A stretch of DNA of 64,000 nucleotides, taken from IMG/VR virus record IMGVR_UViG_3300025168_000067, positions 1-64,000 of that record; one strand, given 5' to 3'. Position 1 is the first letter of the stretch. The number at the start of each line of letters is the position of its first letter. Origin of the DNA: a virus. A model generated the notes under the pieces. It did no database searches, was not told where the DNA came from, and worked only from the letters and a program-made list of their open reading frames with translations. Positions 1,139 to 62,767 of this stretch are shown piece by piece. The position numbers and the translations under genes are program-made.

Positions 1139-2239
1139 ATGTCCAGTTTGCTTAAAGAGGCGATTGTAGATGCCCGGGCCTTGAGAGAGGCGGCTCTAAA
1201 AAACGCAGAATCATCGATTATAGAAAAGTATTCTAACGAAGTACGCGAAACATTAGATAAATTAATTGAACTTGAGGAGCCAATGCTGGACTTAGAAGAG
1301 CCAGTGGCCGACATCGGCATGCCATCTGATGATCTGGGCGCCCCTGAAGTCACATCTGAAGATATCACCGAGAATGACGTCGAACTATCAGCAACCGATG
1401 GTTTATCTGCCCACACTGGAGAGCATTTGGACAAATTCTCTAATGTCGGCGATAGCAACGAAGTAGAAATTAATCTGGGTGCCCTACAAGAAGCACTCAA
1501 AGAACTGGATGCCGCGGTCAATGAAGAAGAGATCGAGCTTACCGAAGAAGATATTCAAAACATTATGTCTGAAGACGATGAAGTTGTCGAAGAATCTACC
1601 GAAGAAGTACAAGAAGAAGAAATATCCGAGGAGACCGTGACTGAAGAAGACGATACACAAACAGAAGCTCTTAGTATCGACGATTTGACAAATGCAATCG
1701 TAGAGAAGCTCACAGTTGATATGGGTGCAGACCTATCTGGCTGGGCCGGCCGCCCAGCAGAAAGTGTCAAGTGGGAAATGGAGAAGGAGCTAGCACACCG
1801 CCGTTCCACCGATCTCACACAAGATTTAAAAGATTTGAAGAAAGCTCAAGAAGAGTTGGTTTTTGAAAATAACCAAGTCAAAGAGCAAAACACAAAGTAT
1901 AAGCAAGCAGTACAAGAGTTACAGGAAGGATTACAAGATGTAAATCTTTCTAATGCTCGCTTGCTTTACACGAACCGTATTTTACGAAATACCTCCCTAA
2001 ATGAGCGACAAAAAGATAAAATTGTCGAAGCGATTTCTAGCGTCGGTTCTGTAGCAGAAGCAAGGACAGTATTTGAAACACTTCAAAGCACAGTGGAGTC
2101 ATCTCCTACAGAGAAGCGACCACAATCACTGAGCGAAGCAATATCAAAACGTTCTACTATGTTACGTGCGACTCGTCAAGAGAGCACACCCTCTGATCCT
2201 CTCCAAGAGAGGATGAAGAGACTAGCTGGAATAAAATAA
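1139..2239 (+). CDS. Prohead core/scaffold protein (T4 gp22-like)
   Basis: This 366-aa protein lies directly upstream of the major capsid gene, the position of the gp22 scaffold in T4-like phages. Residues ~45-180 are extremely acidic with runs of Glu and Asp. Residues ~225-290 look like a coiled coil (KDLKKAQEELVFENNQVKEQ). The C-terminus is basic and ends QERMKRLAGIK. An acidic, helical, coiled-coil protein with a basic tail is typical of phage scaffolds, which fill the prohead and are degraded during maturation. The N-terminus (MSSLLKEAIVDARALREA) contains L-x-E sites of the kind cut by T4-type prohead proteases. The start follows a TAGGAG site. Function is by context and composition. Confidence 0.72.
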   Translation: MSSLLKEAIVDARALREAALKNAESSIIEKYSNEVRETLDKLIELEEPMLDLEEPVADIGMPSDDLGAPEVTSEDITENDVELSATDGLSAHTGEHLDKFSNVGDSNEVEINLGALQEALKELDAAVNEEEIELTEEDIQNIMSEDDEVVEESTEEVQEEEISEETVTEEDDTQTEALSIDDLTNAIVEKLTVDMGADLSGWAGRPAESVKWEMEKELAHRRSTDLTQDLKDLKKAQEELVFENNQVKEQNTKYKQAVQELQEGLQDVNLSNARLLYTNRILRNTSLNERQKDKIVEAISSVGSVAEARTVFETLQSTVESSPTEKRPQSLSEAISKRSTMLRATRQESTPSDPLQERMKRLAGIK

Positions 2240-2265: not shown

Positions 2266-4059
2266 ATGTCTAGTATTATTGAAAGGCTGACTGAAGGTGT
2301 CATCAATCGTGATGTCCGTGCCGAAGGTCATGCTTTATTACAAAAATGGGAAAAGACCGGTCTACTCGAAGGAATAGATAAGGATCGCTCCCGTCAAACT
2401 ATGGCTCGTTTGCTTGAGAACCAAGCTAAAGAGCTTCTACGTGAAAGTTCATCGATGGCAGGTGGAGATGTTGAGGGCTTTGCGGCCGTTGCATTCCCGA
2501 TTGTTCGTCGTGTTTTCGCAGGGCTTATCGCTAACGATCTCGTTAGTGTTCAGCCGATGAGTCTGCCATCCGGCCTCATCTTCTTCCTCGACTTCACAGT
2601 CAGCCAGGAATCAGGTGACTATCCCACGGTAAAATCTCGTCTAGGATACGATCTGTCAAGTTCGTTGTATGGTGGAAACCAAGTTGGTAAGGGAATCGTC
2701 GATGGTATCGATCTATCCCAACAGCTGGGTGACGCCGGTGGCGGATATAACCTTAATAACGGTTATTCCTCTCCGACTGGTTCAGCTCTTGCCAGCGCTA
2801 TAACTTTAACACCATTAGCTGTCCAAAACGGCGTCTTTGGGTGGAACACAGCGGCCACCAAGGCAACACGTTATGACGCAGACTTTGTCTCTGGCTCAAC
2901 GGTGGCTACAGTAGTGTCGGTGTTGCTAACTGGTCTAGACCAGGTTAATACACAGGGGCCACAGTCATTCAATGTATCCAGTAGCGAAGGCAATGGTATT
3001 TTGGAAGACAAAGGCGGTGCAGCCTTTGCTCGCTTGGTACGCCGCCAAACTCGCAAAAATACTGCCGGCACACGTCTAGATTTGACTTTTGTTGGTGTTG
3101 GTGTTGATGGAGCAGTCGGCGGCAATGCAGTGAGTGCAGCGGGACAGGGCGTTCTTGTTCTGTCTCAGCTTACCTCAGCCCTAAACACGGTTTCCTGGGC
3201 CCAAACAGATGATCTAACTAACGCTAGCGCTCTAGGTGGTGTTGTTGGTCAAGCTGAGTGGGGTCTCGAAGCAGAGAAGAATATCCCAGAGATCGACATC
3301 AAGGTCGATAGTATTGCGATTACAGCGCAAACCAAGAAGCTCAAGGCTAAGTGGACACCGGAGTTAGGTCAAGACCTTAACGCCTACCACAACCTTGATG
3401 CCGAGGTTGAGCTTACAAGCATTCTCTCTGAGCAAATCGCTCTTGAGATTGATCGCGAGATCCTATCTGACCTAGTAAATGGTGCAACAGCTGCAACATA
3501 CTACTGGGCTCGTTCTCCAGGTCTGTTTGTTAATCGCACAACAGGTGCAGAAATCGGTGCGTCCTCAGCGGCTCCCGACTTCACTGGTACTGTGAGTGAA
3601 TGGTATGAGACTCTCGTTGAGACAATCAACGATGTTTCTGCTCAGATTCACCGCAAGACCCTTCGCGGCGGAGCTAACTTCATTGTATGCTCTCCCGAAG
3701 TTGCTAACATCCTAGAATTCACAGCCGGCTTCAGAGCTTCCGTCACACATGATGATGAGAAGGGTTCTGTTGGTGCAGTGAAGACTGGTTCGCTTAGCAA
3801 GAAGTTCGATGTCATTGTTGATCCGTACTTCCTTCGCAACGTGATCCTTGTTGGTCGTAGAGGTTCAAGTTTCCTTGAATCTGGTTATGTATATGCACCC
3901 TATGTGCCGCTACAAACTACGCCCACAATCTTCGGACCCGAAGACTTCGTGCCCCGTAAGGGAGTCATGACGCGTTATGCCAAGAAGATGGTGCGTCCTG
4001 ACCTTTACGGCCTTGTTATTGTCCGCGGACTACTTGGTGAAGCCGGTGCTACTAGCTAA
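2266..4059 (+). CDS. Major capsid protein (T4 gp23-like)
   Basis: The 597-aa product builds the icosahedral head shell. It shows the gp23 pattern: an N-terminal helical region with LLENQAKELLRESSS (T4 has a similar ENQEK segment before its cleavage site), then FPIVRRVFAGLIANDLVSVQPM, matching the gp23 'MVRRAIPNLIAFDICGVQPM' region, and later LKAKWTPELGQDLNAYHNLD and a C-terminal APYVPLQTTPT/FGPEDFVPRKGVMTRY segment. It is longer than T4 gp23 (about 520 aa); residues ~150-300 look like an inserted variable domain. N-terminal processing probably occurs at an L-x-E site such as LLRE. AGGAGG precedes the ATG. A terminator-like hairpin follows. Confidence 0.92.
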   Translation: MSSIIERLTEGVINRDVRAEGHALLQKWEKTGLLEGIDKDRSRQTMARLLENQAKELLRESSSMAGGDVEGFAAVAFPIVRRVFAGLIANDLVSVQPMSLPSGLIFFLDFTVSQESGDYPTVKSRLGYDLSSSLYGGNQVGKGIVDGIDLSQQLGDAGGGYNLNNGYSSPTGSALASAITLTPLAVQNGVFGWNTAATKATRYDADFVSGSTVATVVSVLLTGLDQVNTQGPQSFNVSSSEGNGILEDKGGAAFARLVRRQTRKNTAGTRLDLTFVGVGVDGAVGGNAVSAAGQGVLVLSQLTSALNTVSWAQTDDLTNASALGGVVGQAEWGLEAEKNIPEIDIKVDSIAITAQTKKLKAKWTPELGQDLNAYHNLDAEVELTSILSEQIALEIDREILSDLVNGATAATYYWARSPGLFVNRTTGAEIGASSAAPDFTGTVSEWYETLVETINDVSAQIHRKTLRGGANFIVCSPEVANILEFTAGFRASVTHDDEKGSVGAVKTGSLSKKFDVIVDPYFLRNVILVGRRGSSFLESGYVYAPYVPLQTTPTIFGPEDFVPRKGVMTRYAKKMVRPDLYGLVIVRGLLGEAGATS

Positions 4060-8037: not shown

Positions 8038-11000
8038 ATGTCAGTAAAGAATTTTAAGTTTGTATCGCCCGGGGTTTTCATTAACGAAATTGATAACTCG
8101 TATCTCCCAAAGACAGTTGAGGCCATCGGCCCCGTCATTGTAGGCCGCTCTGCACGAGGCTTAGCTATGCAGCCAATAAAAGTAGAATCATATTCTCAGT
8201 TTGTAGATATGTTCGGCGACACGGTGGCAGGTGGTTCAAATAATGATGTATATCGTGATGGAAACTATGTTTCTCCGATGTATGGCACTTATGCTGCAAA
8301 AGCTTTTTTGAGATCAGGAGTTGGCCCAGTCACATACATTCGCCTTCTTGGGCAGCAGACATCAGCCGGCAGCACTGCAGGCCTGGACGCTGCAGCCGGC
8401 TGGAAAACCACTGAAGACCTAGACCGCGACTCCAACACAGCCGGCGGCGCATATGGCCTCTTTGTATGTACTTCAGGATCGGACACAGACTGTTCAAGTG
8501 ATGGTAAAGAACTACACTTAGCAGCCACATTCTATATGAACTCGGGCTCTCTTAGCCTTGTCGGCCCTGTGCGTGGCGCGGGGGCTGGTGGAGACACCGC
8601 CCTCGGCATGACAGCCTCACTCGGTACGTATAATGGTCGCGGCCTAGTATTGGGTATGGATAGTGACAACCTATTCACTATTGAATATAGTGGCTCTAAC
8701 ACTTCTTCCCCGAAAAGAGTCAAGTTTAACTTTAATGACAATAGCGATAAATTCATCAGAAAAAGGTTCAACACAAACCCTCAGCTATTAACCACCGCCG
8801 GCGCTTTTTATCCCGCAGCCACAGTTGATGATGTTTGGATTGGAGAAACGTTTGAACAAGAACTAAGAGACCGCGATCTGGACACTGCAGCCCTTCAAGG
8901 AGTAATTCTTGGAATTGGGCTAAGTGGCTCAGCCGCGACCGGCCCACAAAACATGAAGAAGCAAGCTTCTCGCGAGGCGGTTGCAGGTTGGTTTATTGGC
9001 CAAGACTTAAGTGGAGACCCGACATCCTACATTCCACAACTACAACAGAAGCTGTTTAAGTTGGTTGGCCGCGGCCACGGAGAGTGGTTGCACAAAAACG
9101 TGAAAGTTTCCATCGAAGACATACGACAGTCAAATACCAACGCAACCGAATACGGTTCTTTCTCGGTGGTTCTGAGATCTCTCAGTGACACAGACAACAA
9201 TGTACAAATTATGGAAAGATTTGATAACTGTACTCTCGATCCCACAAGCCCCAGCTATGTTGCTCGCAAAATTGGCGATCAATATACAAGCTGGGACTCT
9301 GTTAGCCGTAGATTGAAGACATACGGAGATTATCCAAATAACTCAAGGTTTGTCTATGTAGAGGTTAATCCTGAAGTTGATTCGGCAGCCACAGACCCAC
9401 TTTATCTTCCATTTGGATTCTTCGGACCCCCCAAATTTACAGATGTTGCGGCTGCTAGTAATGCTGCGGGCTATGACGTCGGCTCTCACAAGAGTTTCGT
9501 CATCAACGCACAGGGTTTAAGCCCTAGTTGTACGCTTCTTTCGGGTGCGTTTGCACTTGCGGAAGGCTTTAAGGCCGCCCCCACACCGACGCAAGCCAAC
9601 GCCGCCGGCGCAACCAACCAATCACCGTTTCAGATCATGGTGGCGGGTGATGTAAGAGCGATTCCCGCGATAAGCGAAGACGCAACATTTGCAACACACC
9701 TTGGAGTCCGAGCAGTCACAGCATCTCTGATCTTCCCAGTTAATAGAAGCAGACTATCAGCCAGTGATGGAGGCTTAACAAACACCAAAAACGCATATTG
9801 GGGATTTTCAACCACGAGAGTTAGCTCCTCGACCAAAAACGACAATAGTGTTGCAGCCCCCAACAGACTACTATATGCAGGATTCCCCGATGATCCAACA
9901 GCTGGCACAAACGGCGCTATCGCTGCCTTCCATGCCAATGCCGGTATAGATTCATGGTCTTACGTTTTCTCATTGGACGACTTAGTTAGTGGCGACAATG
10001 GATTTTATTATCAATCAGGCTCTCGTGCAAACCAAGGCCTGGCAACAGCCGGCATTGCAGCCGGATCTGCCACATCAGCTAGCTGGACTCCGATCCTAGA
10101 CAACGAGCATAACAGATTCACTGCACCTTTCTGGGGTGGCTTTGATGGCTGGGACATTCAGAAACCCGATCCGCTTTATAATGAAGGTATGGGTTCCTCA
10201 GTAACTGAAGACACAAGTTATGCGTATCACACCTGGCGCCGAGCATTCGACACAGCTGCAGATCCAGAATATGTTGATATGAATCTTATGGTGGCCCCTG
10301 GCCTTACCAACACCTCTTTAACTGAACACATGATAAACATGTGCGAGGATAGAGGAGACGCCATGGCGCTTGTAGATCTTCCCAGTGTATACATCCCTCC
10401 TCATGAGAAATATTATTCTGATAAATCATCTCGCCGCGGCACAACTCCACAAACAGCGGTTAATGACTTAAAAGACAGAAGAATTGACTCTTCATATGGA
10501 GCCACATTCTACCCATGGGTCCAAACAAGAGACGCCGCAACAGGGAGAATGTTGTGGATCCCACCCAGTGTCGCCATGATAGGTGTTCTGGGCAGTTCTG
10601 AGGCCAAAACAGCTGTTTGGTTTGCTCCTGCTGGCTTTAACCGCGGCGGCCTAACAGAAGGCGCTGCAGGTCTCCCAATTACAAGTGTAACCGAACGACT
10701 TACATCAAGAGATCGCGATCTATTGTACGAGGCAAAAATTAATCCAATAGCTTCATTCCCCAACACAGGGATTGTGGTATTCGGACAAAAGACTCTGCAA
10801 GACGGCGCCTCTGCGCTAGATAGAATTAACGTACGCAGACTGTCCATCTATCTTAAGAAGCAGATTTCAATCATCTCGGCCCAAATATTGTTTGAACAAA
10901 ATGTTCAAGCAACATGGGATAGGTTCAAAGGATTGGTCGAACCATTCTTGGCAAACGTCAAGACAAAGTTCGGCATCACAGATTATAAACTGATTCTTGA

Positions 11001-11136
11001 TGAATCAACTACCACCCCGGACTTAATCGACCAAAATATTTTGTATGCCAAAATAATGGTCAAACCGGCCCGGGCCATTGAATATATTGCTATTGATTTT
11101 GTTATTACATCAACTGGTGCATCATTTGATGACTAA
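8038..11136 (+). CDS. Tail sheath protein, paralog 1 (T4 gp18-like)
   Basis: 1032 aa; forms the contractile outer sheath. The N-terminus VSPGVFINEIDNS and GPVIVGRSARGLAMQP is the standard sheath start. The C-terminal third carries the conserved fold: INVRRLSIYLKKQISIISAQ, FEQNVQATWDRFKGLVEPFL and MVKPARAIEYIAIDFVI. It is much longer than T4 gp18 (659 aa); residues ~120-780 contain surface insertions. The paralog at 11785 is collinear with it. The start follows an A-rich GAAGGAAAAAAAAC leader. Confidence 0.93.
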   Translation: MSVKNFKFVSPGVFINEIDNSYLPKTVEAIGPVIVGRSARGLAMQPIKVESYSQFVDMFGDTVAGGSNNDVYRDGNYVSPMYGTYAAKAFLRSGVGPVTYIRLLGQQTSAGSTAGLDAAAGWKTTEDLDRDSNTAGGAYGLFVCTSGSDTDCSSDGKELHLAATFYMNSGSLSLVGPVRGAGAGGDTALGMTASLGTYNGRGLVLGMDSDNLFTIEYSGSNTSSPKRVKFNFNDNSDKFIRKRFNTNPQLLTTAGAFYPAATVDDVWIGETFEQELRDRDLDTAALQGVILGIGLSGSAATGPQNMKKQASREAVAGWFIGQDLSGDPTSYIPQLQQKLFKLVGRGHGEWLHKNVKVSIEDIRQSNTNATEYGSFSVVLRSLSDTDNNVQIMERFDNCTLDPTSPSYVARKIGDQYTSWDSVSRRLKTYGDYPNNSRFVYVEVNPEVDSAATDPLYLPFGFFGPPKFTDVAAASNAAGYDVGSHKSFVINAQGLSPSCTLLSGAFALAEGFKAAPTPTQANAAGATNQSPFQIMVAGDVRAIPAISEDATFATHLGVRAVTASLIFPVNRSRLSASDGGLTNTKNAYWGFSTTRVSSSTKNDNSVAAPNRLLYAGFPDDPTAGTNGAIAAFHANAGIDSWSYVFSLDDLVSGDNGFYYQSGSRANQGLATAGIAAGSATSASWTPILDNEHNRFTAPFWGGFDGWDIQKPDPLYNEGMGSSVTEDTSYAYHTWRRAFDTAADPEYVDMNLMVAPGLTNTSLTEHMINMCEDRGDAMALVDLPSVYIPPHEKYYSDKSSRRGTTPQTAVNDLKDRRIDSSYGATFYPWVQTRDAATGRMLWIPPSVAMIGVLGSSEAKTAVWFAPAGFNRGGLTEGAAGLPITSVTERLTSRDRDLLYEAKINPIASFPNTGIVVFGQKTLQDGASALDRINVRRLSIYLKKQISIISAQILFEQNVQATWDRFKGLVEPFLANVKTKFGITDYKLILDESTTTPDLIDQNILYAKIMVKPARAIEYIAIDFVITSTGASFDD

Positions 11137-11784: not shown

Positions 11785-14700
11785 ATGTCAGTCAAAAGCT
11801 TTAAGTTTATATCGCCGGGCGTTTTTATTCACGAAATCGATAACTCCGGAATTCCCAACATAGCGGAAGCCATCGGCCCCACAGTTATGGGCCGTTCATC
11901 GCGCGGATTGGCGATGCAACCAGTAAAGGTCAATTCATATTCAGAATTTATCGATATGTTCGGTAACGCGGTTCCCGGTGGTTCCAATGACGATGTATAT
12001 AGGAAAGGAAACTACTCATCTCCGATGTACGGGACATATGCAGCAAATGCATTCTTGAGGTCCGGAGTCGCCCCCCTTACTTATGTCCGCCTTCTAGGCC
12101 AGCAAACGACCGTCGGCTCTGCCGCCGGCGGAGACGCAGCAGCAGGCTGGAAGACGACGCAGAACGTATCAACCACTCCGACAGCGACCGGAGGAGCTTT
12201 TGGCCTCTTTGTGTGCGCTAGCGGTTCCGGCGTAGATATGACTGGAGATTCTTGGAGCACAAGCGCCCTACACTTAGCTGCAGTATTTTATATGAACAGC
12301 GGCTCAATGCACCTCTCAGGCACCGCTAGAGGCGCCGGCGGTACCGAAGCCCTCGGTACAAATGAGCCGAATCTCGGCGCTGAAGGCATAGGTATGGTAA
12401 TCGGAATGGCCGATGGACTGTTTAGTCTCGTGGTGTCAGGATCCAATAAGGGCGCAGATCCCGAACCTGCAAACAAGGCAAGAGTACTTAAGTTTAATTT
12501 TGACGACTCTAGTGACAAGTTTATCCGCAAAAGCGTTAATACGAACCCACAACTCCTCTCGACTGCAGCCGCATTTTTCCCTGCAAGCACAACAGAAGAT
12601 GTTTGGCTTGGAGAAACGTTCGAGCAAGAATTAAGAGATCTTGGCCTCGCCACAGCCACAACGCTTCAAGGAACAATTCTTCCGATCGCGAAGAGTGGCT
12701 CTGTTGGTGTTGGCCCCCAAAACATGAAAGCACAAGCCTCTAGAGAGGCAGTTGCTGGTTGGTTTATTGGCCAAGACTTGAGTGGAAATCCCACCAGTTA
12801 CGACGCTAAGAATCAGCAAAAACTGTTTAGACTCAAAGGCCGCGGCCATGGCGAGTGGCTTCACAAGAACGTGAAGGTTTCGATCGAAAAGATCCGCGCA
12901 TCCAACTCGACAGTAACCGATTACGGTACTTTCTCGGTAGTTCTCCGGAATGTCAATGATACCGACAACACCGTACAAGTTCTAGAGAGATTCGACAGCT
13001 GCAATCTCGATCCATCAAGTCCGAGCTTCATTGCGCGCAAGATCGGAGATAAATACAAATCATGGGATACTACAGCAAAGACATTGAAAGAATACGGAGA
13101 ATATCCAAATCTATCGAAATTTGTATATGTAGAGATCAACCCAGAAGTTGATTCTGCCGCAACGGATCCGACTTGCTTGCCGTTTGGCTACTTCGGACCT
13201 CCCGGTCTTGCTTCCGTGAATTCTGGTTCTTCAATTGTGCCGAATCGCGATGGAGCTACTGACGCTGCCAGCGCGGTCTATGCTTCAAACAATAACACGT
13301 TTATTCTTGGGAATAGTAATGTCAATCAGAAAATGGCCACCCTCCAGCGATTTTCCCCCGCCGGCGCCTCAGTCGAAAGCACCGAAAACCTTATTTTAGT
13401 TAGAGATAGCATACAAGCCGGCGTAACCAACAAGACACGCTTTCGGCCAGTAACTGCATCCATCCACTTCCCGAAAGACAGACTTCGCATATCTGCCAGT
13501 GCCGGAGGATTATCCGACACAAAAGATGCATATTGGGGTTGGTCCACGACACGCAAAGCAGCGAATTCCATTCCTGACGCATCCGTAATCGACTGGCACC
13601 GTCTATTGTACGCAGATTTCCCAGTAGATCCAACGGCCGGCACCGATGGTGCTGTGGGCAGCGTTGATGCTACAGCCGGCGTTAAAGCCTGGTCATATAT
13701 CTTCTCCTTAGATGACATTGTATCCGGAGCAAATGGATATATCTATCACTCTGGCTCGCGCCGAGCAGAAGCATCAGCAACCTCAGCTAGCTACACTTCA
13801 ATATTGAACAATGGAGTTGATAGATTTACAGCCCCGTTCTGGGGTGGCGCCGATGGGTTCGACATCCAGAAGCCCGATCCGCTTTATAATGAGCAGTGGA
13901 GAGGCGCATCTCCCACAGAAGACACAAGCTACGCATATCACACCTGGAAACGTGCAATCGACACGATCTCGGATCCAGAAGTTACTGACATGAATGTACT
14001 GACAGCACCCGGCCTCACACAAGCCACCTTAACAGAACATATGATTACAACTTGTGAGGCCCGCGGCGACAGCATGGCGCTGATCGACCTACCAGATATA
14101 TATTTGCCGACTCACGAAGTCTATAAGTCTTCGAAGAAAGAAAGAGTGGGAACTACACCGGCCCAATCAGTTAATAACTTTAAAGATAGAAGAATCGACT
14201 CATCATACGGCGCGACATTCTACCCGTGGGTTCAAACAAGAGATGAAAACACCGGCCGCCTCCTGTGGATTCCGCCAAGCGTAGCCGCTTTGGGAGTGCT
14301 AGGTAGCTCAGAGAGAAAAACACAAGTTTGGTTCTCAGCCGCCGGATACAACCGCGGAAGCTTATCAAATGGCGCTGCTGGAATAACTGTAACAGGTGTT
14401 TCAGAGAGATTGTCTTCTAAAGAAAGGGACGCTCTTTATAAGGGTAGAATTAATCCAATTGCCAACTTTGTTGATACAGGAATTGTAATATTCGGACAAA
14501 AGACCTTACAAGCTAGAAAATCAGCACTTGACAGAATCAATGTCCGGAGACTGGTGATTCATATGAAGAAGCAGATATCTGTAATTTCTTCACAGATACT
14601 TTTCGAACAAAATGTTCAAGCAACGTGGGATAGGTTTAAGGGCTTAGTGGAGCCATTCCTTTCAAATGTCAAAGTCGAGTATGGTATCACAGATTACAGA

Positions 14701-14847
14701 CTAATCTTGGATGAAACAACCACCACTCCTGATTTGATTGACCAAAACATCCTATACGCCAAGATTATGATTAAGCCTGCACGAGCAATCGAGTTTATAG
14801 CAATTGACTTTGTTATTGCTTCGACCGGCGCATCATTCGACGATTAA
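11785..14847 (+). CDS. Tail sheath protein, paralog 2
   Basis: 1020 aa and collinear with the sheath at 8038: same FISPGVFIHEIDNSGIPN start, same DRRIDSSYGATFYPWVQTRD segment at about residue 800, and same INVRRLVIHMKKQISVISSQ end. Differences cluster in the middle insertion region, while the C-terminal third is nearly identical, so both copies probably assemble in the same lattice or in alternative particles. Synonymous sites differ widely, so the duplication is old. AAGGAA precedes the ATG. Confidence 0.92.
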   Translation: MSVKSFKFISPGVFIHEIDNSGIPNIAEAIGPTVMGRSSRGLAMQPVKVNSYSEFIDMFGNAVPGGSNDDVYRKGNYSSPMYGTYAANAFLRSGVAPLTYVRLLGQQTTVGSAAGGDAAAGWKTTQNVSTTPTATGGAFGLFVCASGSGVDMTGDSWSTSALHLAAVFYMNSGSMHLSGTARGAGGTEALGTNEPNLGAEGIGMVIGMADGLFSLVVSGSNKGADPEPANKARVLKFNFDDSSDKFIRKSVNTNPQLLSTAAAFFPASTTEDVWLGETFEQELRDLGLATATTLQGTILPIAKSGSVGVGPQNMKAQASREAVAGWFIGQDLSGNPTSYDAKNQQKLFRLKGRGHGEWLHKNVKVSIEKIRASNSTVTDYGTFSVVLRNVNDTDNTVQVLERFDSCNLDPSSPSFIARKIGDKYKSWDTTAKTLKEYGEYPNLSKFVYVEINPEVDSAATDPTCLPFGYFGPPGLASVNSGSSIVPNRDGATDAASAVYASNNNTFILGNSNVNQKMATLQRFSPAGASVESTENLILVRDSIQAGVTNKTRFRPVTASIHFPKDRLRISASAGGLSDTKDAYWGWSTTRKAANSIPDASVIDWHRLLYADFPVDPTAGTDGAVGSVDATAGVKAWSYIFSLDDIVSGANGYIYHSGSRRAEASATSASYTSILNNGVDRFTAPFWGGADGFDIQKPDPLYNEQWRGASPTEDTSYAYHTWKRAIDTISDPEVTDMNVLTAPGLTQATLTEHMITTCEARGDSMALIDLPDIYLPTHEVYKSSKKERVGTTPAQSVNNFKDRRIDSSYGATFYPWVQTRDENTGRLLWIPPSVAALGVLGSSERKTQVWFSAAGYNRGSLSNGAAGITVTGVSERLSSKERDALYKGRINPIANFVDTGIVIFGQKTLQARKSALDRINVRRLVIHMKKQISVISSQILFEQNVQATWDRFKGLVEPFLSNVKVEYGITDYRLILDETTTTPDLIDQNILYAKIMIKPARAIEFIAIDFVIASTGASFDD

Positions 14848-48540: not shown

Positions 48541-48800
48541 GATCAAAAGATGGCTTACGGCCGTGTGCTAGGGTGTGCCGCGAGAAGAATAAGAACTGCA
48601 CAAAGACGGAATGTAGAATGTGGATAGAGCATTCCGCTGACTATAACTGCACACTTGTCGCAGTGTATGAGCATGGGAGGATGACGCTGAGAGAAGTGGC
48701 TGAACGAACTGGGGTTTCATTTGCGAGAATAAAACAAATAGAGTCCGCCGCCCTCAAGAAGCTAAAAAAACGTCTAGACATATCATCTTTGCTCTTTTGA
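48537..48800 (+). CDS. Sigma-70 region 4 protein with Cys-rich N-terminus
   Basis: 87 aa. Residues ~40-80 (VYEHGRMTLREVAERTGVSF then ARIKQIESAALKKLKKRL) match sigma-70 region 4, including the helix-turn-helix and the Gln-Ile-Glu recognition helix. Residues ~9-35 contain Cys at CARVC, NKNCTKTEC and NCTL, perhaps a zinc module in place of sigma regions 1-3. It cannot be a complete sigma factor. It could bind the RNA polymerase flap and redirect it to the late-type promoters, one copy of which lies directly downstream at 48821. Confidence 0.75.
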   Translation: MRSKDGLRPCARVCREKNKNCTKTECRMWIEHSADYNCTLVAVYEHGRMTLREVAERTGVSFARIKQIESAALKKLKKRLDISSLLF

Positions 48801-48820
48801 AGGGATTTAACAAAGTTAGA

Positions 48821-48830
48821 TACTATTTAC
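48821..48830 (+). promoter_or_regulatory. Putative late promoter motif TACTATTTAC
   Basis: Full match to WACTAYTTAY, right after the sigma-like gene and 42 bp before the acidic core-like protein gene. Confidence 0.65.
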
Positions 48831-48871
48831 AGTTGAGTTTAGATTTAAACAACGTCTTAGGAGAAAATAAA

Positions 48872-49522
48872 ATGGCTCGAAAAACACTTTTAACAGAGGG
48901 CGAAGTTCGCCAATTTATGAAACTGGCAAACCTTCCCGCTGTGGGCCAAAACAGGATCTCAGAAATGGGCCTTAACTTAGGTATTAATGAGGAGTTCCCC
49001 GGAGAGGAAGAGGAAGAGCTTGACTCGCCCCTTGGAGGACTTGAGGGTGACGAAATGGGCCCACCGACCGAGGACGAAGTACCACTCGATGACGAGCCCG
49101 AAGCCGTCGAGCTAGGAGATGCAGAGATGGATGTAGAGGGTTCTGAAGGTTCAGAGGCTGAAGAGATCGTGGCCAGAATCGCTCATGATCTTGAGATGTT
49201 AGCCGGCCTAGCCAATGTTGAAGTTGATGTACAGGATGATGCCGACTCGGATGTCGACGCGTCAGATGATATGGAAATGGATGCCGAGCCTGCCATGGAT
49301 GATATGGAGATGGGCATGGAAGACCCTGGCCCTGACCTGGCGCCCGAAGAAGAGGAAGAAGAGTTCCCCCCCGGCAGCCGCGGCATGTATGAGAACCAAG
49401 ATGCCATCGTCAATGAGGTCGCACGTAGAGTAGCAGCCCGTCTCGGAAAAACACAAAAGAAGGAGGCACTAGCTGATCAGCTAGCTGAGCGCATCCTTAA
49501 GAGACTTACCAAAACAAAATAA
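48872..49522 (+). CDS. Acidic core/scaffold-like protein with L-T-E-G N-terminus
   Basis: 216 aa from the ATG at 48872, 8 bases after TTAGGAG; an in-frame start at 48797 would overlap the promoter motif. The N-terminus MARKTLLTEGEVRQFMKLAN has the L-T-E-G sequence that T4-type prohead protease would cleave. Residues ~45-165 are over one third Glu and Asp. The C-terminal 45 residues (NEVARRVAARLGKTQKKEAL then ADQLAERILKRLTKTK) are a basic helix. I have seen this N-terminus in scaffold-like proteins of marine phages. With the late promoter, it looks like an internal head protein. Confidence 0.62.
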   Translation: MARKTLLTEGEVRQFMKLANLPAVGQNRISEMGLNLGINEEFPGEEEEELDSPLGGLEGDEMGPPTEDEVPLDDEPEAVELGDAEMDVEGSEGSEAEEIVARIAHDLEMLAGLANVEVDVQDDADSDVDASDDMEMDAEPAMDDMEMGMEDPGPDLAPEEEEEEFPPGSRGMYENQDAIVNEVARRVAARLGKTQKKEALADQLAERILKRLTKTK

Positions 49523-50705: not shown

Positions 50706-52406
50706 ATGGACGATTTGAGAAATATATTAAAAGAAGAGTACAACAAGAAGGCAAATATTGTCGATGTTAAAACATTGATGGAGATGGTGGAAGAGGTGAT
50801 GGCGCTTCCATTCGCAGTCGCAGGGATGCAGATCCACGAAGAACAGGGATCCGCAAAGCCAAAAGTACGCACCTATCATATCTCAGAAATCCCCATGATT
50901 CCGATTTCAGAACTGGGGTGGGCAAATGCGGATGACGACGCAGAATCTGACGATCCCAACGCTCCACCATCCCAGCGCCAAGGTTTGGAACAATATCTCG
51001 CTAAGATTCCTGGTACCGGATTCGAAGACAAACTTAATGCTGTCTCAGGCATCATGGAAAAAGGTATCAATTCCATCCCGAGAGACAACCCCAAAGAGTT
51101 TATTCAGCAAGCCATGGCATACTTGGTATTTTATAAGACACTAACGATGGCAATTACAAACTTTAACGCATCTGCTGCCGGCTTCAACTTTGAAGCATTT
51201 CTTGCGGCATTGATGCAAGGAAGGCAAATCCCCGCCGGCGGCGCCAAGACTATCGCTGATATCACTGCCAACGTAGATGGGGAAAGAATCCCAGTCAGTC
51301 TTAAGTTATATACTGACAAGGGGCTTGAAGTCGGAGGCAGCTTCTTTGACTTGTGTAACGATATGCTCGAACCTAACGCTGAGTGGGCTGCATGGACAGG
51401 TACAAACCCCGAATTTGAAGGCGGGGCCATGAGGTACATAGCATGCACCAAGACTTTAAATGGCGACGGTGTTGAACAAGAGGGCCATATCGATTTTTAT
51501 CAGTTCGACATCACACGCAAAAATCTATTTGAATTGTTGTCCGTAACAGACGCCGGCCGTAAAGCAATATTGTCGAATACGAATTTTATGGCAGCTTTGA
51601 CTGAATACATGAAAACTGGAGAACAAACCGACTCACTTAATTGGGCAGACAATATGCCTGCTCGTAGTGACACCAGTGATTCCGCAGAGATTTCTAGTTT
51701 GTGGTCTGATTATCTTTCTAAGACCGATTTGTCCTCTATGCGAAAAGCAGGAGTCAGCGAGGAGCAAGAGAAAACGATCCTTAACACACTGGTTAAGATG
51801 TATATGGACAACATAGAAGCGACCCAAAGCGCCAATACACTTGCTGCGGACGGCGCCCTCGCCGCGCAGATTGCGTTAGCTCTCAATAGCGATCCTTCTC
51901 AGGAGGATAAAATCATGGCTAGAGACATTAGAAATAAAATTGTTAAACCTCTTTTCGCACAATTTAAGAAAGATGTTATAAGAAGTCGCGATGCTCGCGG
52001 TCAGTTTCTCGACAAGTCGGGAGAGTGGGTCACGGGCACTCCAGTGGTGGAGTGGTACAATTCTTTAACGCCCGAACTTAAGGCTATGGCAATTAAAAAT
52101 ACCAAAGGATATTTAACTCACTCTCACTGGGTTTTATCAAGAGGCGCAACAATCAGGCTTGGAGGAGGCTCACCTTTCGCTAAATTAGATATTGGGGCCG
52201 CGGCCGTTATGAGGGTGCTAGAATCAGCCCGCGGCGAACTTATGGATGAAGTATTTGGCATTTTTGATCAGGTATCAGCTATGTCTGATAGTCTTAATGC
52301 GTTTTTCGCCAATGGGCTACAGGAACCGCAACAAGCTAGCCAAGCTGCTCATTCTGCCGATGCGGTTGGCACCGACACTAGAAAAATTGCCGGCATTGAT
52401 AAATAA
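50706..52406 (+). CDS. Conserved 566-aa phage protein with restriction-nuclease-like core
   Basis: Residues 1-60 include an N-terminal helix DDLRNILKEEYNKKANIVDV with an L-K-E site. Residues ~150-215 contain NFNASAAGFNFEAFLAALMQ, TIADITANVDGERIPVSLKL and a VGGSFFDLCND helix. Glu163, Asp185 and Ser198-Leu-Lys200 are spaced like the core of a PD-(D/E)xK nuclease with Ser in the E position. Residues ~480-500 (SHWVLSRGATIRLGGGSPFA) are well conserved in relatives I recall. Function is unknown. The gene sits with ClpP-like and core-like genes, so a virion role is likely. Confidence 0.5.
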   Translation: MDDLRNILKEEYNKKANIVDVKTLMEMVEEVMALPFAVAGMQIHEEQGSAKPKVRTYHISEIPMIPISELGWANADDDAESDDPNAPPSQRQGLEQYLAKIPGTGFEDKLNAVSGIMEKGINSIPRDNPKEFIQQAMAYLVFYKTLTMAITNFNASAAGFNFEAFLAALMQGRQIPAGGAKTIADITANVDGERIPVSLKLYTDKGLEVGGSFFDLCNDMLEPNAEWAAWTGTNPEFEGGAMRYIACTKTLNGDGVEQEGHIDFYQFDITRKNLFELLSVTDAGRKAILSNTNFMAALTEYMKTGEQTDSLNWADNMPARSDTSDSAEISSLWSDYLSKTDLSSMRKAGVSEEQEKTILNTLVKMYMDNIEATQSANTLAADGALAAQIALALNSDPSQEDKIMARDIRNKIVKPLFAQFKKDVIRSRDARGQFLDKSGEWVTGTPVVEWYNSLTPELKAMAIKNTKGYLTHSHWVLSRGATIRLGGGSPFAKLDIGAAAVMRVLESARGELMDEVFGIFDQVSAMSDSLNAFFANGLQEPQQASQAAHSADAVGTDTRKIAGIDK

Positions 52407-55752: not shown

Positions 55753-56089
55753 CCTGCTCTTTGCGTGCTCCCTGTTTGCTTTGGGGCAAACAATGGCGTG
55801 GTTTCAAATCAACTCACAGTTTGTGTGGGATTGGTGGCGTGACAAGCCTGTGTTGGCCGTCGCATTGTTTGGTTTTCCGGTTGGGCTATGTTTCTTATAT
55901 GGTGTAAGAATAGCTTATGAGGAAATGGGACAGATTTGGGGGCCACGATTTCTCATATTTAGCATGTCCTACCTCACCTTTCCGTTGCTCACTTGGTATT
56001 TTATGGATGAATCAATGTTCACAGCCAAAACAATGACTTGTGTATTCTTATCATTTATGATTGTGGCAGTTCAATTGTTATGGAAGTGA
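55739..56089 (+). CDS. Four-helix membrane protein
   Basis: 116 aa from a TTG start overlapping the upstream stop. Four hydrophobic segments are visible: NLLFACSLFALGQTMAWF, PVLAVALFGFPVGLCFLYGV, FLIFSMSYLTFPLLTWYFM and MTCVFLSFMIVAVQLLWK. I recall close relatives in marine phages. The function is unknown; it resembles a small transporter-like or immunity-type membrane protein only in topology. Confidence 0.62.
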   Translation: MPTSNLLFACSLFALGQTMAWFQINSQFVWDWWRDKPVLAVALFGFPVGLCFLYGVRIAYEEMGQIWGPRFLIFSMSYLTFPLLTWYFMDESMFTAKTMTCVFLSFMIVAVQLLWK

Positions 56090-56847
56090 CAACCATATAT
56101 TTATTTGACGTTGATGGCACGCTAACACCCGCCAAAACCCGCATCGACTTCAATTTCGCCAATGACTTTCGCGACTGGATCGAAGGTAAAGAAGTTTATA
56201 TTGTGTCTGGGGGCTCATACGAGCGCATCATTGACCAGCTTGGCGTTTCTATAGTCGATAAGATGGCAGGGGTGTTCGCTTGTATGGGTAATACGTTCTA
56301 CCAAAAATATAACAGTGGCAACACTGGCCAATATAGTGAATGGAAACTAATATATGAGAATAAATTTAAGGCGCCCCGGGGCTTTTATAAACAATTAGAC
56401 AGTATTGTGAAAGAATCTCCCTACGAAAGCAAGACTCGTCGCCATTACGAAGAGCGCATTGGTATGGTAAATTTCTCTATTGTCGGCAGAGACGCTAGCC
56501 CCCCGCAACGGAGAGCATATTCTGACTATGATGCGATGGAAAAGGAGCGAGAGCAGATAGTTAAAGCTCTCTCCAAGAAATACAAGAGCTTAGACTTTGT
56601 GATCGGAGGGGCTGTAAGCATAGATATCTTTAATAAGGGCAATGATAAATCACAGGTTATTGAGAAGTTTTTTAAAGACTCCTTAAAAACCCACAAGATA
56701 GCGTTTGTGGGCGATAAGATACCGCGCCCGGGCAACGACCATGCGATAGCAGAGAAACTCCGCAAGCACCCAAATGGGGGGGCTTATGAGGTAGGTTCCT
56801 GGCAAGACACTGCCAAACTACTTAAGACTCCACCATTTACTAGTTGA
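56080..56847 (+). CDS. HAD-superfamily phosphatase, phosphomannomutase-like
   Basis: 255 aa from the ATG at 56080; an in-frame start at 56038 is inside the upstream gene. Motif 1 is LFDVDGTLTPAKTRID (residues ~7-21), with the nucleophile Asp and the T-P-A-K ending typical of eukaryotic-type phosphomannomutases. YIVSGGSYERI is motif 2, and VGDKIPRPGNDHAIA with its downstream Asp is motif 4. Residues ~90-190 are a cap domain (ERIGMVNFSIVGRDASP). It could interconvert mannose phosphates for glycan or DNA-base modification, or just act as a phosphatase. Confidence 0.78.
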   Translation: MEVTTIYLFDVDGTLTPAKTRIDFNFANDFRDWIEGKEVYIVSGGSYERIIDQLGVSIVDKMAGVFACMGNTFYQKYNSGNTGQYSEWKLIYENKFKAPRGFYKQLDSIVKESPYESKTRRHYEERIGMVNFSIVGRDASPPQRRAYSDYDAMEKEREQIVKALSKKYKSLDFVIGGAVSIDIFNKGNDKSQVIEKFFKDSLKTHKIAFVGDKIPRPGNDHAIAEKLRKHPNGGAYEVGSWQDTAKLLKTPPFTS

Positions 56848-56860
56848 TAGTAGAAATAAC

Positions 56861-56870
56861 AACTATTTAT
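56861..56870 (+). promoter_or_regulatory. Putative late promoter motif AACTATTTAT
   Basis: Full match to WACTAYTTAY, 30 bp before the 1169-aa protein gene. Confidence 0.65.
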
Positions 56871-56899
56871 AGTGTATTGATACACTAAGAGGAAAAATA

Positions 56900-59800
56900 A
56901 TGGACTTTTCTACAGGCAATTGGTTCGGCTATCTTCGAGAAGAAGTTTTAACAGAGGGGTTGAGAGACATCGGCTTGTCCGAGGTCATCGTTGATTTCAT
57001 CGAGGACGGCATGCCAAATGCTCCCGAGAAGTCAAAGATGTACGCAGGCAATAACTGGAAAGAACACAAGTTGGGCAACCCCGGCTACATCGACAGCACT
57101 CAACAGAACTGGCTGAGTTTTATGGAGCGTAACTTTGAAGATCAGATACAGCTTCCACGCGCAACCCACAATCCAGTCCAAGCACGCACGATTACTCCCT
57201 TCTCCATAAGCGATGCCGGCTCGGACGGCAACGTCCGCGTCCGCGATTTCAGCCGGAAGCGCGTAGCATACGACGACGAAACCATCGAGCAAAACAAGAA
57301 GATCGCATTCGTCGCAGACAATATAAAGCAAGCGTGGGCAAAGCCCGCCGGCACTTGGCGCAAGACATTTATGAAAGCAGTGAAGGCACTGAGCAAAGCA
57401 GGTGTGCCTTCCGAGAAAGTTGAGGTTGTGAAAGAATATATCAATGAGCAGATGCTGTCTCAGTGGAAAACATACTGGGGCAGATATAACGAGTTATTCT
57501 CTTGGCTCAACGACGAACCAACGAACTACGAAATGATCAAGGGTGATGATATTGACAACGCCTACCAAACTGCAGTGGATGACTTGGAGAACCGAGAAGA
57601 TCCAGACAACATACTCCACACATTTGAGGACGGCTCGTACTGGTATAACTTGAATGTGTCTAACTGCGCCGTAGAGGGCGAGCGTATGGGACACTGTGGC
57701 GGTGACACTCGCGGTGTTCTAGTCTCACTCCGCAAACGCCAAAGCAAGCGCAAAGCATCCTCATCTTATATTACGATGACCTGGGGTGACGAGACCCTTT
57801 ATCAGATCAAGGGACGCTCCAACGACGCACCCCCCGAAGAAATGTGGGATCACATCGACTGGTTTATTAAGAACGTGGGTATTACCTCAGTTCAAGAAAG
57901 CGGCGAGCACTCCAGCGATTATGATGGCTTCCGAGAGATGAATGATTATCTATCCACCCGAAACCGTCACGTCTTCTTTGCCGGTCAGATTGATGAAGCT
58001 GCCATCCAAGAAGCAGTAGAAGAGGCTGTCAATGACTACGAGGCCGAAAACTCATCGATCTCCGGTGAAGTCCAAGGGCCAGACGAACACGGCGGCGAGG
58101 GAGTATATGTCTATATGACGGCCGATTGTGAGATACAGATCGACCTAGGCTGGAAAGGGTTTGAACTCAGGAACAACGAATTCACCCCTACGATTGCTCC
58201 CAACGACACCACACGAGACACGCGCTTTGAAACGATCCCGGATAACAATTGGGGAACCTCAGCGAGAAACTTTACCAGCGAAATAGACTTAGAGGAGCTT
58301 GGCTACGATTTACCCGGCGAAGGCGAGGTTGAATGGAATATCAGAATGCTGACTGGCGCCCAACCAGAGGGCGAAGACATAGATCCAGACTATCCAGCGA
58401 CCGCGCACCTTGAAATTTCGATACGTACCATGGAGCAGGAGTCCGCCGACGATGAAGACGATGCTGCCCGAAACATGCGATACTTTGGCGAGTCGGTTAT
58501 AGAAAACTTCGAGGATAACTACGAAGAGCTTCGCGAGAAGGTGCGATCCCAACTAGCAGAAGGCGGCTATGCAGTCAAAACTCCATATGATCGCGAACGA
58601 ACGGGTATGACCGAGCTGGATCTTGACAACTGGAAGATCTGGTCAGATGGTCCGAGACTAGAGTTTTGGTTCAGGCGTGGTCAGAGAGATGACAATGCTG
58701 TGTTAAACTCTGGCGGAGATATCGGCAGTGTCTCAAACATGATCAAGATGTGGGGTTTTGATGAAAACAGGGAAGGACACATGGATGGAATATACCGCAA
58801 GATGTTTGGGTCACCTTCTGTTGGCCGGCCCTTGCGTGTAGAGAACGATGATCTGAGCCGCAACATGGCAAGAAACTTAGAGAAACTTTACGCCGCAGCA
58901 GAAGGGGAGGCCACAGGACAGCAGCCGCTAGCCCTCGGCGCCAAATATGAAGCTCCTGCCGCTAGTATTGTATTGGCGAAAGACTCACGCTTTATCATCA
59001 TGCCAGAGACAACATTAAAGAGGGATCAGTACCCCTCCATGTTGCTCAATTGGAAGTATGAGATTGGGGTGGGCAGCAAGTCGTCGCCCGAAGAAGTTGA
59101 AGTTGTTAAAGACATTGTGCATTATTTTAACGCACGTCCCGACATGGTGGAGGAAGCTGCAAAGGAAACAATCCGCACATCCATACAGGGATTAGAAGCG
59201 CTTGCAGATGCCACCAAGAACGATGTAATGTCGGGCAAGTGGCCCCAGAGCGCCATCCAACATATTGACAGCCGGTACGGAGCCGCGGCCATGTCAGGCT
59301 CCGACACCAATGCTGAGCGTATTATAATGATCACTACGTGGATCAAGGAAAACTTTGATCAGATGGGTGAAGTTGAGAGGTGGGTTGCTTGGTTCAGGTT
59401 TTTGAAGCCACTGAAAGAGGGATATTTTAACATAGCTCGCGGCGGAGATATCGAGATGGACGACGATGCCAACATTGGCCGGCCCGAGAATTGGAGCAGA
59501 AAAGTCAAAGAACAGATGACGCGTTTAGGAACCTACGGCGGCACCGTGAGGAACTATGCCGGCGTTTCGATCCAAGAGAATATAGAAGATCAGATTGAGA
59601 GAATTGAAAGACTTTTGCAGGAGAAGGATACAAATTATGATCTCCGCATTTATAGTATAGTGATGGATGTTTCAGTATCAAAAGATGTTGGTGGAGAGGT
59701 CCAGGAGACACAGACAGAGATCCGTGGTATCAATGGTGTGACTACCGTACGAACGTTGGGTAACTTAACACCAACAGGGGTGACGCACACAGGTAAGTTC

Positions 59801-60409
59801 GAGATCAAGTTTGAGATCTTGGGAGGTATGAGTCGCGTGAAATATAGGGATCGAGTTCTTATCCCCGGAATGGCACGAATCAATGGCTTAAAGATTTTGA
59901 GAGTCTCGCCAATACACAGAACTAACAAGCGTGGCACCATCAGAACAGTGCGCGAGGCGATGGAAAATGCCATTAACGAGGCAGGGTTTGGAGGTATGGC
60001 TGGTGCGATGAGTTCGGTGCGCACACAGAATACGCGCACGATGCCCACACCCCGCGGGACATTGGATGATATAATGGCTGACTGGCGGGATGGCGGCGTG
60101 ATGACATATGACGCACCGATGGACACAACAGACATGCGGTATCATGTGATGATGCCAGTGGAGGAGATGTGGGAAATCATATGCCGGTCACAAACAAAAG
60201 GCTCTGGCCCAATGTTTAGAGCGCCCAAAGATGGTTTCGATGGAATGTATCAGAACTTTATTAGAAATGGCGCCACCGCTCCTGTGTATATAGCAATCGG
60301 CAAGAACGGCAAAATAAAAGTAACAGGCAACGAAGACTTGATTTGGTATGCCAAAGAAAGCGGCTTAGAAGAATTACCAGTGTTTCTCTCGTATCAAAGT
60401 CAAGTATAA
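56900..60409 (+). CDS. Giant conserved virion-associated protein (1169 aa)
   Basis: The N-terminus NWFGYLREEVLTEGLRDIGL carries an L-T-E-G site after a helix, like a capsid-targeting sequence. Residues ~247-275 (WYNLNVSNCAVEGERMGHCG) contain Cys256, His265 and Cys266 in a PcfJ-like C...EG-x-x-MGHC motif. Residues ~1125-1169 (VYIAIGKNGKIKVTGNEDLI and SGLEELPVFLSYQ) resemble a ParB/sulfiredoxin-type domain with the 'ELPVF' strand. The middle is acidic. I recall relatives in many marine phages; no function is known. A late motif precedes it, and it would be the largest packaged protein. Confidence 0.6.
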   Translation: MDFSTGNWFGYLREEVLTEGLRDIGLSEVIVDFIEDGMPNAPEKSKMYAGNNWKEHKLGNPGYIDSTQQNWLSFMERNFEDQIQLPRATHNPVQARTITPFSISDAGSDGNVRVRDFSRKRVAYDDETIEQNKKIAFVADNIKQAWAKPAGTWRKTFMKAVKALSKAGVPSEKVEVVKEYINEQMLSQWKTYWGRYNELFSWLNDEPTNYEMIKGDDIDNAYQTAVDDLENREDPDNILHTFEDGSYWYNLNVSNCAVEGERMGHCGGDTRGVLVSLRKRQSKRKASSSYITMTWGDETLYQIKGRSNDAPPEEMWDHIDWFIKNVGITSVQESGEHSSDYDGFREMNDYLSTRNRHVFFAGQIDEAAIQEAVEEAVNDYEAENSSISGEVQGPDEHGGEGVYVYMTADCEIQIDLGWKGFELRNNEFTPTIAPNDTTRDTRFETIPDNNWGTSARNFTSEIDLEELGYDLPGEGEVEWNIRMLTGAQPEGEDIDPDYPATAHLEISIRTMEQESADDEDDAARNMRYFGESVIENFEDNYEELREKVRSQLAEGGYAVKTPYDRERTGMTELDLDNWKIWSDGPRLEFWFRRGQRDDNAVLNSGGDIGSVSNMIKMWGFDENREGHMDGIYRKMFGSPSVGRPLRVENDDLSRNMARNLEKLYAAAEGEATGQQPLALGAKYEAPAASIVLAKDSRFIIMPETTLKRDQYPSMLLNWKYEIGVGSKSSPEEVEVVKDIVHYFNARPDMVEEAAKETIRTSIQGLEALADATKNDVMSGKWPQSAIQHIDSRYGAAAMSGSDTNAERIIMITTWIKENFDQMGEVERWVAWFRFLKPLKEGYFNIARGGDIEMDDDANIGRPENWSRKVKEQMTRLGTYGGTVRNYAGVSIQENIEDQIERIERLLQEKDTNYDLRIYSIVMDVSVSKDVGGEVQETQTEIRGINGVTTVRTLGNLTPTGVTHTGKFEIKFEILGGMSRVKYRDRVLIPGMARINGLKILRVSPIHRTNKRGTIRTVREAMENAINEAGFGGMAGAMSSVRTQNTRTMPTPRGTLDDIMADWRDGGVMTYDAPMDTTDMRYHVMMPVEEMWEIICRSQTKGSGPMFRAPKDGFDGMYQNFIRNGATAPVYIAIGKNGKIKVTGNEDLIWYAKESGLEELPVFLSYQSQV

Positions 60410-61849: not shown

Positions 61850-62767
61850 ATGAATGGAATGAGTTGGAAAGATTTTGTTGATAGCCTTCACGAAGTTGAA
61901 GCATATCAACAGAAGGTGAAGAGGGCACCCCGTGATAAGCTCACCAAACGAGGCCCACAACGCAAAGGGGGCGCCCCGTTTGATGAGGAGCCCAATCCTA
62001 TCAATAAGTCGGCAGCGCCGGCCCAGGGTAACGTGGGCCTTGAAGAAGAAGTTGAACCGGAGTCATTCGATTCACACGACACTCTTGCAACAGGTATTTG
62101 GATAGATGGCGACCGAGTTGCACCCAAGGTGGTGGCCCGCCTAAATAAAATAGCACAAGATTTCATAGACAGTCTTCCGGTTGAAATAGATATAGAAGAC
62201 ATTAGACTGACGGGCTCTCTCGCAAACTATAATTGGTCGAACTACTCCGATGTAGATCTTCACATCATTGTCGATTTTCTTGGTATTGACGAGAACAAAG
62301 TACTTGTTAAAGCGTTCTTTGATAATGCGAGAATGCGATGGAACAACAGACACCAGATCAGAATGAAGGGCTATGATGTTGAAATATATGTGGAAGATTC
62401 AAGAGAACAACACGTATCGTCAGGTGTGTATTCTTTGATGAACGGTGAGTGGGTAACAAAACCACGCAAATATCGCAAGAGCATTGATTTTCCTGCCGCG
62501 CGCCGCAAAGCAGCCGACTTGGAATTCCAAATAAACATTATCGACAACCTCATCACTGCAAAAAAATTAAAGAGCGCCCTGAAGAATGTTGAACGAGTTA
62601 AAAGAAAGATAAAGAACATGCGTCATGCTGGCTTGGAGAGTACACACAAAGAGTTTTCAATTGAAAATATTGCCTTTAAAATCTTGCGAAGAAATGGTAT
62701 GTTAGGTGTGCTCGATGAATTTAAACATAAAATATATGATGACATGATGACGGTCAAAGAGGAATAG
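61850..62767 (+). CDS. Pol-beta-type nucleotidyltransferase with capsid-targeting-like N-terminus
   Basis: 305 aa, or 302 from ATG 61859. Residues 4-15 (MSWKDFVDSLHE) resemble T4 capsid-targeting sequences such as MKTYQEFIAE. Residues ~20-90 are a basic then acidic linker. The enzyme core has Gly-Ser at 122-123 and Asp134-Val-Asp136 in TGSLANYNWSNYSDVDLHII, the GS-x(10)-DxD signature, with a third acid at 176 or 178 in GYDVEIYVED. It transfers nucleotides to an unknown acceptor; RNA, protein or a small molecule are all possible. The late motif and N-terminus suggest it is packaged. Confidence 0.72.
   Translation: MNGMSWKDFVDSLHEVEAYQQKVKRAPRDKLTKRGPQRKGGAPFDEEPNPINKSAAPAQGNVGLEEEVEPESFDSHDTLATGIWIDGDRVAPKVVARLNKIAQDFIDSLPVEIDIEDIRLTGSLANYNWSNYSDVDLHIIVDFLGIDENKVLVKAFFDNARMRWNNRHQIRMKGYDVEIYVEDSREQHVSSGVYSLMNGEWVTKPRKYRKSIDFPAARRKAADLEFQINIIDNLITAKKLKSALKNVERVKRKIKNMRHAGLESTHKEFSIENIAFKILRRNGMLGVLDEFKHKIYDDMMTVKEE

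Follow-up and report, generated by a model that had tools for sequence, protein, structure and literature searches.

The 1169-aa protein encoded at 56900-60409 of the window (the stretch of 64,000 nucleotides analysed here, bases 1-64000 of a 72,632-base IMG/VR virus record) is probably a late protein that would be packaged into the phage head, processed by the prohead protease and ejected, i.e., a cargo resembling the internal proteins of T4 and an ejection protein of the polyvalent type. Packaging and cleavage taken by themselves appear likely to us, and delivery into the host is favoured by a small degree; we call the combined statement probable because its core is packaging and cleavage. 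The first-pass annotation had proposed an injected effector. This idea receives strong indirect support from a conserved leader of the prohead-protease type, the occurrence of gp21-family proteases among the relatives, an upstream motif of the late class and the swapping of modules behind a constant leader.

The phage and the gene

The phage is an uncultured marine relative of T4 within the wider "far-T4" myoviruses, a placement which follows from a capsid protein of the gp23 superfamily, sheath-like ORFs and the genes for a DnaE-type polymerase, GroEL and ClpP that it carries. The capsid protein is nearest to those of Flavobacterium immuto phages, a Microcystis phage and Rhodothermus phage RM378. 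The scaffold assignment given below was made because the gene precedes the capsid gene and encodes an acidic coiled sequence. Two tail-sheath-like ORFs (8038-11136, 1032 aa, and 11785-14847, 1020 aa) have near-identical starts with the tube gene lying between them, an apparent sheath duplication.

1139..2239, + strand, probable scaffold or prohead core protein, CTATTTA 43 bp upstream
2266..4059, + strand, major capsid protein, gp23 superfamily, LTEG at residues 8-11
56900..60409, + strand, gene of the 1169-aa protein, ATG start, no internal stop
56957..57079, + strand, conserved helical segment GLRDIGLxExIxDFIExxMxxAxEKSK (residues 20-60)

The open reading frame is intact from its ATG to its end, as annotated, and codes for a protein of 132.7 kDa with a pI of 4.8. 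We regard it as real because there are full-length relatives with about 46-70% protein identity in a conserved gene order. Identity among the relatives is highest in residues 1-60, 121-360 and 1111-1169. The locus lies outside the structural cluster and adjoins the ClpP, GroEL and phosphomannomutase-like genes, and the order of the surrounding genes is kept in the relatives. Directly 5′ of the gene a phosphomannomutase/HAD-type protein is encoded (56038-56847, PF03332, E 4e-24); this neighbour is missing beside the gene in some relatives (L004, L008, L031 and L039), in which a similar upstream motif is retained.

The protein had been described as widely seen, which holds for marine metagenomic contigs and not for isolates. 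In IMG/VR we found close relatives in 38 contigs, the C-terminal module in at least 86 contigs and the PcfJ-like part at 64 loci. None of 50,697 phage records gave a match when the cut-off was relaxed to E 0.1, and tblastn with the whole protein and with its front parts retrieved nothing from phage isolates. Two matches to metagenome-assembled genomes fall on short contigs, possibly phage sequence that was binned with them. Nine contigs (L031-L039) stop at codons 52-72 of the gene, as if the assemblies broke where the conserved start meets variable sequence. Sequence searches of Pfam, PHROGs and the PDB with the protein returned only noise and no recognised enzyme domain; matches to spectrin and eL28 were weak and isolated and were dismissed.

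A conserved leader with a predicted prohead-protease site

56900..56956, + strand, leader MDFSTGNWFGYLREEVLTE, candidate capsid-targeting propeptide (residues 1-19)
56948..56959, + strand, predicted prohead-protease cleavage site L17-T18-E19/G20, from leader conservation
48797..49522, + strand, acidic protein with the start MARKTLLTEGE (start at about 48872), leader LTE(G/A/N/S/T) conserved

The prohead protease of T4, gp21, cuts after L/I-X-E, and the propeptides of the T4 internal proteins are capsid-targeting sequences (PMC9026906). The first-pass annotation had noted an L-T-E-G start; the motif is present, at residues 17-20 and not at the very N-terminus. In 13% of ORFs a string of the type (L/I)-x-E-(G/A/S/N) is found within 25 residues of the N-terminus; it is thus not rare, and our argument is built on the conservation of the leader and not on its presence. 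The pattern ATxxWFxxL...(L/I)xE is conserved in 61 distinct N-termini, including those of proteins with a different front module. In the alignment P3 is L or I and P1 is E throughout (61/61 each), P1′ is G in 54/61, and P2 varies freely between T, D, I, N, E, V and K; in two or three of these sequences (e.g., L086 and L080) the first string matched is probably the wrong site. One further N-terminus of the 62 distinct ones, that of L106, lies outside the pattern and carries L-D-E followed by I. The capsid protein and the acidic protein encoded at 48797 likewise have LTE close to their N-termini, both in the window and in G009, a 194-kb contig of the relative L016 (its pieces are numbered L140-L149).

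Peptidase_S77, the gp21 family, was detected in 5 of the 17 relative contigs tested (E 1e-28 to 1e-37) and was not found on the window's own contig. The protease gene probably lies beyond the end of this contig: the contig starts just 5′ of the scaffold gene, and the protease of G009 is encoded about 9 kb 5′ of the scaffold. A gp21-family protease, known from the relatives, and a gp23-type capsid are therefore both encoded in this phage group.

An upstream motif shared with the virion genes

56862..56871, + strand, ACTATTTATA motif, probable late promoter, starting 38 bp 5′ of the start codon

In 66 of 67 distinct relatives the motif ACTATTTA is located about 25-40 bp 5′ of the gene; across these 67 distinct gene versions the chance of a motif of this type is 3.2% per 75-mer. 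We screened G009, with genes called by a simple ORF finder, for 8-mers enriched 12-70 bp 5′ of ORFs. The T4-type late promoter TATAAATA, which was tested first, was not enriched; instead ACTATTTA was the most enriched 8-mer, preceding 15 ORFs against 0.57 expected, with 27 copies in the contig when both strands are counted. The genes preceded by it are homologues of the baseplate wedge, tail tube, tail sheath, head-tail adaptor, tail fibre and scaffold, along with the homologue of the 1169-aa protein. TTGACA, in turn, is found in G009 5′ of the DNA polymerase, ssb, exonuclease, HNH, endonuclease and GroEL genes, and the two gene lists have no gene in common. The shorter motif CTATTTA is present in the window ahead of the genes at 1139, 5260, 16072, 35348 (endolysin), 42408, 50706, 56900 and 61850. 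We consider ACTATTTA a candidate late promoter of marine far-T4 phages, a statistical assignment drawn from one genome and the gene-specific comparison. Late expression together with the virion genes, which is characteristic of the T4 internal proteins, is thus indicated by motif statistics. The transcription programme of the same phage group has been reported to lack the T4 regulators (PMC4360716).

A domain remotely related to PcfJ

57620..57892, + strand, PcfJ-like domain (residues 241-331), hhalign 92-95% to PcfJ
57665..57697, + strand, CAVEGERMGHC motif (residues 256-266; C256, E259, H265 and C266)

C256, H265 and C266 are placed as annotated and are invariant or nearly invariant among the relatives. 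By profile comparison the Cys-His region is a remote homologue of PcfJ, as had been suggested from its motif. Residues 230-360 matched an alignment of pCF10 PcfJ and 12 relatives with an hhalign probability of 92% (P 6e-7), which became 92-95% when more diverse relatives were added. All controls stayed below 2% (other segments of the protein at most 0.8%, shuffled columns below 0.5%). Over about 80 residues the alignment keeps E-G, H-C, R, T and Q-x-x-G-x-x-N, the pattern of PcfJ proteins (PF14284) of pCF10 and of phages of Gram-positive bacteria and Bacteroidetes. Unlike in these, the domain of the window protein is embedded in a 1169-aa late protein and has an extra cysteine, C256. The Pfam HMMs themselves were silent: PF14284 remained below its curated cut-off on the protein and on the relative contigs, and bridging to it with hmmscan through the divergent PcfJ-like proteins that had raised the hhalign score failed. 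The partner PcfK (PF14058) was likewise not found in the contigs examined (0/6, several of which are fragments), while it was detected in both positive controls.

The domain also occurs in other settings. In more distant phage proteins (L205-L214) it follows another leader, MKIIITESQFGILTEN, and in a phage protein of 1032 aa (L215:1994-5089) it is fused to a peptidoglycan-binding domain and an M23 peptidase. On several plasmids and phages (L045, L046, L055, L048, L049 and L051) PcfJ adjoins genes of PcfK-like or AcrIIA9-family proteins, the latter a family of Cas9 inhibitors, an association which hints that PcfJ may function in counter-defence or in the early phase of establishment. We found no published biochemical activity of PcfJ in the literature, so that the word effector is a guess where this domain is concerned.

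Exchange of the front module

Five sister proteins of 1293-1348 aa (L100, L103, L105, L106 and L109) have the ATxxWFxxL leader and an (R)LDE site, and share homology with the window protein from roughly residue 390 through the C terminus (hhalign 100%, E 4e-115; BLAST 27-67%). They keep the rear of about 800 residues and carry a front module with an SCHSEG motif in place of the PcfJ-like module. Profile comparison of the two front modules, which would have identified the SCHSEG module as a diverged PcfJ, gave only 0.2-0.4%, and we therefore treat it as unrelated. Two other proteins (L078 and L080) consist of the ferredoxin-like and the ParB-like part only, the W-F start being retained in L080. 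The leader, the upstream motif and this module swap together support late expression and head packaging, as far as such features can be read from sequence.

The rear part

57932..59599, + strand, shared body of two alpha/beta domains and a helical bundle (residues 345-900), predicted model
59639..59929, + strand, ferredoxin-like domain of the DUF211/MTH889 type with IRGxxGVTTV (residues 914-1010), fold match
60137..60406, + strand, ParB/sulfiredoxin-like fold with TGNED replacing G-x-x-R (residues 1080-1169)

The AlphaFold2 model of the whole protein was of moderate quality (pLDDT 71.5, pTM 0.39), and residues 345-900 were modelled better with 50 sequences (pLDDT 83.5, pTM 0.67). A fold search with this body gave a best Z of 6.3 (YbjN family and CapZ), which is below the level that we trust; for residues 364-545 the model tentatively suggests a YbjN/T110839-like arrangement. 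The ferredoxin-like domain matches 3bpd, 2x3d and 2raq with Z 10.0-10.3.

For the C terminus a resemblance to ParB/sulfiredoxin had been annotated. The predicted fold of residues 1080-1169 agrees with this (Z 7.2-7.4 to 6ky4, 7ol9 and 7bnr, i.e., sulfiredoxin, Noc and ParB), and so does a weak profile match to 27 ParB domains (hhalign 26-32%) with a co-linear alignment that preserves the order of strands and helices; other segments of the protein gave 0.1-1.8% and shuffles at most 1.4%. The DNA-binding or nuclease role which the resemblance implied is not supported in the sense of an enzyme: the pocket arginine of the superfamily is absent, T-G-(N/G/S)-E-D standing at its position in 65 of 66 sequences, so that the window protein has G-N/G-E-D where ParB N-terminal domains (PF02195) have G-E-R-R. 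The PF02195 HMM had no match in the contigs and no helix-turn-helix was recognised with the ParB-like end. Both domains named in the first-pass annotation have thus gained support, and the lack of support for either of them, which it had named as speaking against its reading, is not what we found.

Proposed mechanism and comparison with known systems

Residues 1-19 would bind to the prohead core, and a gp21-type protease would cut after E19. The mature protein of 1150 aa and 130 kDa would remain in the head with the DNA and be ejected into the host together with the genome. There the PcfJ-like module would act early, and most likely either against host defences or in the takeover of the host. 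A part in packaging, in ejection or in association with DNA, and not in catalysis, is what we propose for the constant rear, as its ParB-like pocket is without the arginine.

With IPI-IPIII and Alt of T4 the protein shares a short N-terminal leader ending in L/I-x-E, a gp21-family protease and a gp23-type capsid in the phage group, membership in the late class by its motif, and the reuse of one leader on otherwise different proteins. In contrast to these it is much larger, its leader has the ATxxWFxxL signature, its cargo domains are unrelated to those of the internal proteins or Alt, and its packaging is deduced. It also resembles the polyvalent proteins such as P1 DdrB (Iyer et al. 2017, PMC5512222) in being a large multidomain late phage protein in which exchangeable modules are combined with a domain known from mobile elements and with a predicted ParB/Srx-like domain; it differs from them by the missing arginine of the ParB-like pocket and in that no metallopeptidase, ART or kinase domain was found in it. 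The main text of that study does not mention PcfJ.

Three other explanations have to be weighed. The protein could be a prohead core or minor head assembly protein, which is packaged and cleaved, works in head assembly and stays out of the host. A late-class motif, a gp21-type leader, the failure to recognise an enzyme domain and the vertical synteny in all relatives that is expected of a core gene would agree with such a part; yet it would be unusual for such a part to have its entire front module replaced while leader and rear stay constant, and the PcfJ-like module is met in other phages in a different context, following another leader, and also as a fusion with a cell-wall peptidase. We therefore hold an assembly function to be unlikely. 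That the protein is instead a late intracellular enzyme outside the virion, with the LTEG-like leader used otherwise, e.g., for chaperone binding, is suggested by its neighbours, ClpP, GroEL and the phosphomannomutase-like gene, at a distance from the structural cluster, and by a T4 gp23 study, as cited in PMC10052503, according to which propeptides can also steer proteins to GroEL. The strict L/I and E around a free middle position, however, are more readily explained by a protease site than by a binding helix, and the swapped versions keep the site while the flanking residues change completely, which leaves this explanation quite improbable. A very improbable reading is an injected DNase or NTPase that acts through the ParB-like end in the manner of DdrB-type polyvalent proteins: the ParB/Srx-like fold predicted for residues 1080-1169 and a head-cargo setting resembling that of P1 DdrB (PMC5512222) speak for it, and the missing pocket arginine and the weakness of the ParB profile match against it.

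Other candidate cargo proteins

61850..62767, + strand, 305-aa protein, candidate second head cargo, whose relatives have a W-F-x-x-L leader and the late motif
L140:110-792, L140:4102-4998, L144:13356-13628 and L149 (G009 188240-193183), among the proteins with an N-terminus of the MKITKSQLKQIIKEEL type

The relatives of the 305-aa protein, encoded a few genes 3′ of the gene at 56900, start with MDKWFRxLxE, which resembles the leader of the 1169-aa protein; it belongs to phrog_36119 and has a weak nucleotidyltransferase match. Seven otherwise different proteins of G009 have a common N-terminus of the MKITKSQLKQIIKEEL type, which may be a second sorting leader. A similar start, LRNILKEEY, is found in the 566-aa protein encoded at 50706-52406 of the window, which has the late motif upstream and is 23-83% identical between otherwise syntenic relatives. 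It has no family match, and by eye only its FE..LA / SLK pattern looks nuclease-like.

Implications

We suggest tentatively, and with somewhat less than even confidence, that widespread uncultured marine T4-like phages possess a modular head-delivery platform in which a constant packaging leader with its prohead-protease site and a constant rear chassis, ferredoxin-like and ParB-like, carry exchanged front modules, PcfJ-like or SCHSEG. With the same reserve such a platform may be seen as the virion counterpart of polymorphic toxins; PcfJ, besides being a plasmid protein, would then serve in phages as a module delivered for the early phase of infection. For a phage group reported without the T4 regulators the analysis supplies a candidate late promoter. 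If the reading of the 1169-aa protein as packaged, processed and ejected cargo is true, head-ejected proteins would be readable from sequence by their leader and late promoter, a concrete set of them would be predicted for uncultured T4-like marine phages, and PcfJ, a common plasmid and phage protein, would join the proteins delivered at the start of infection.
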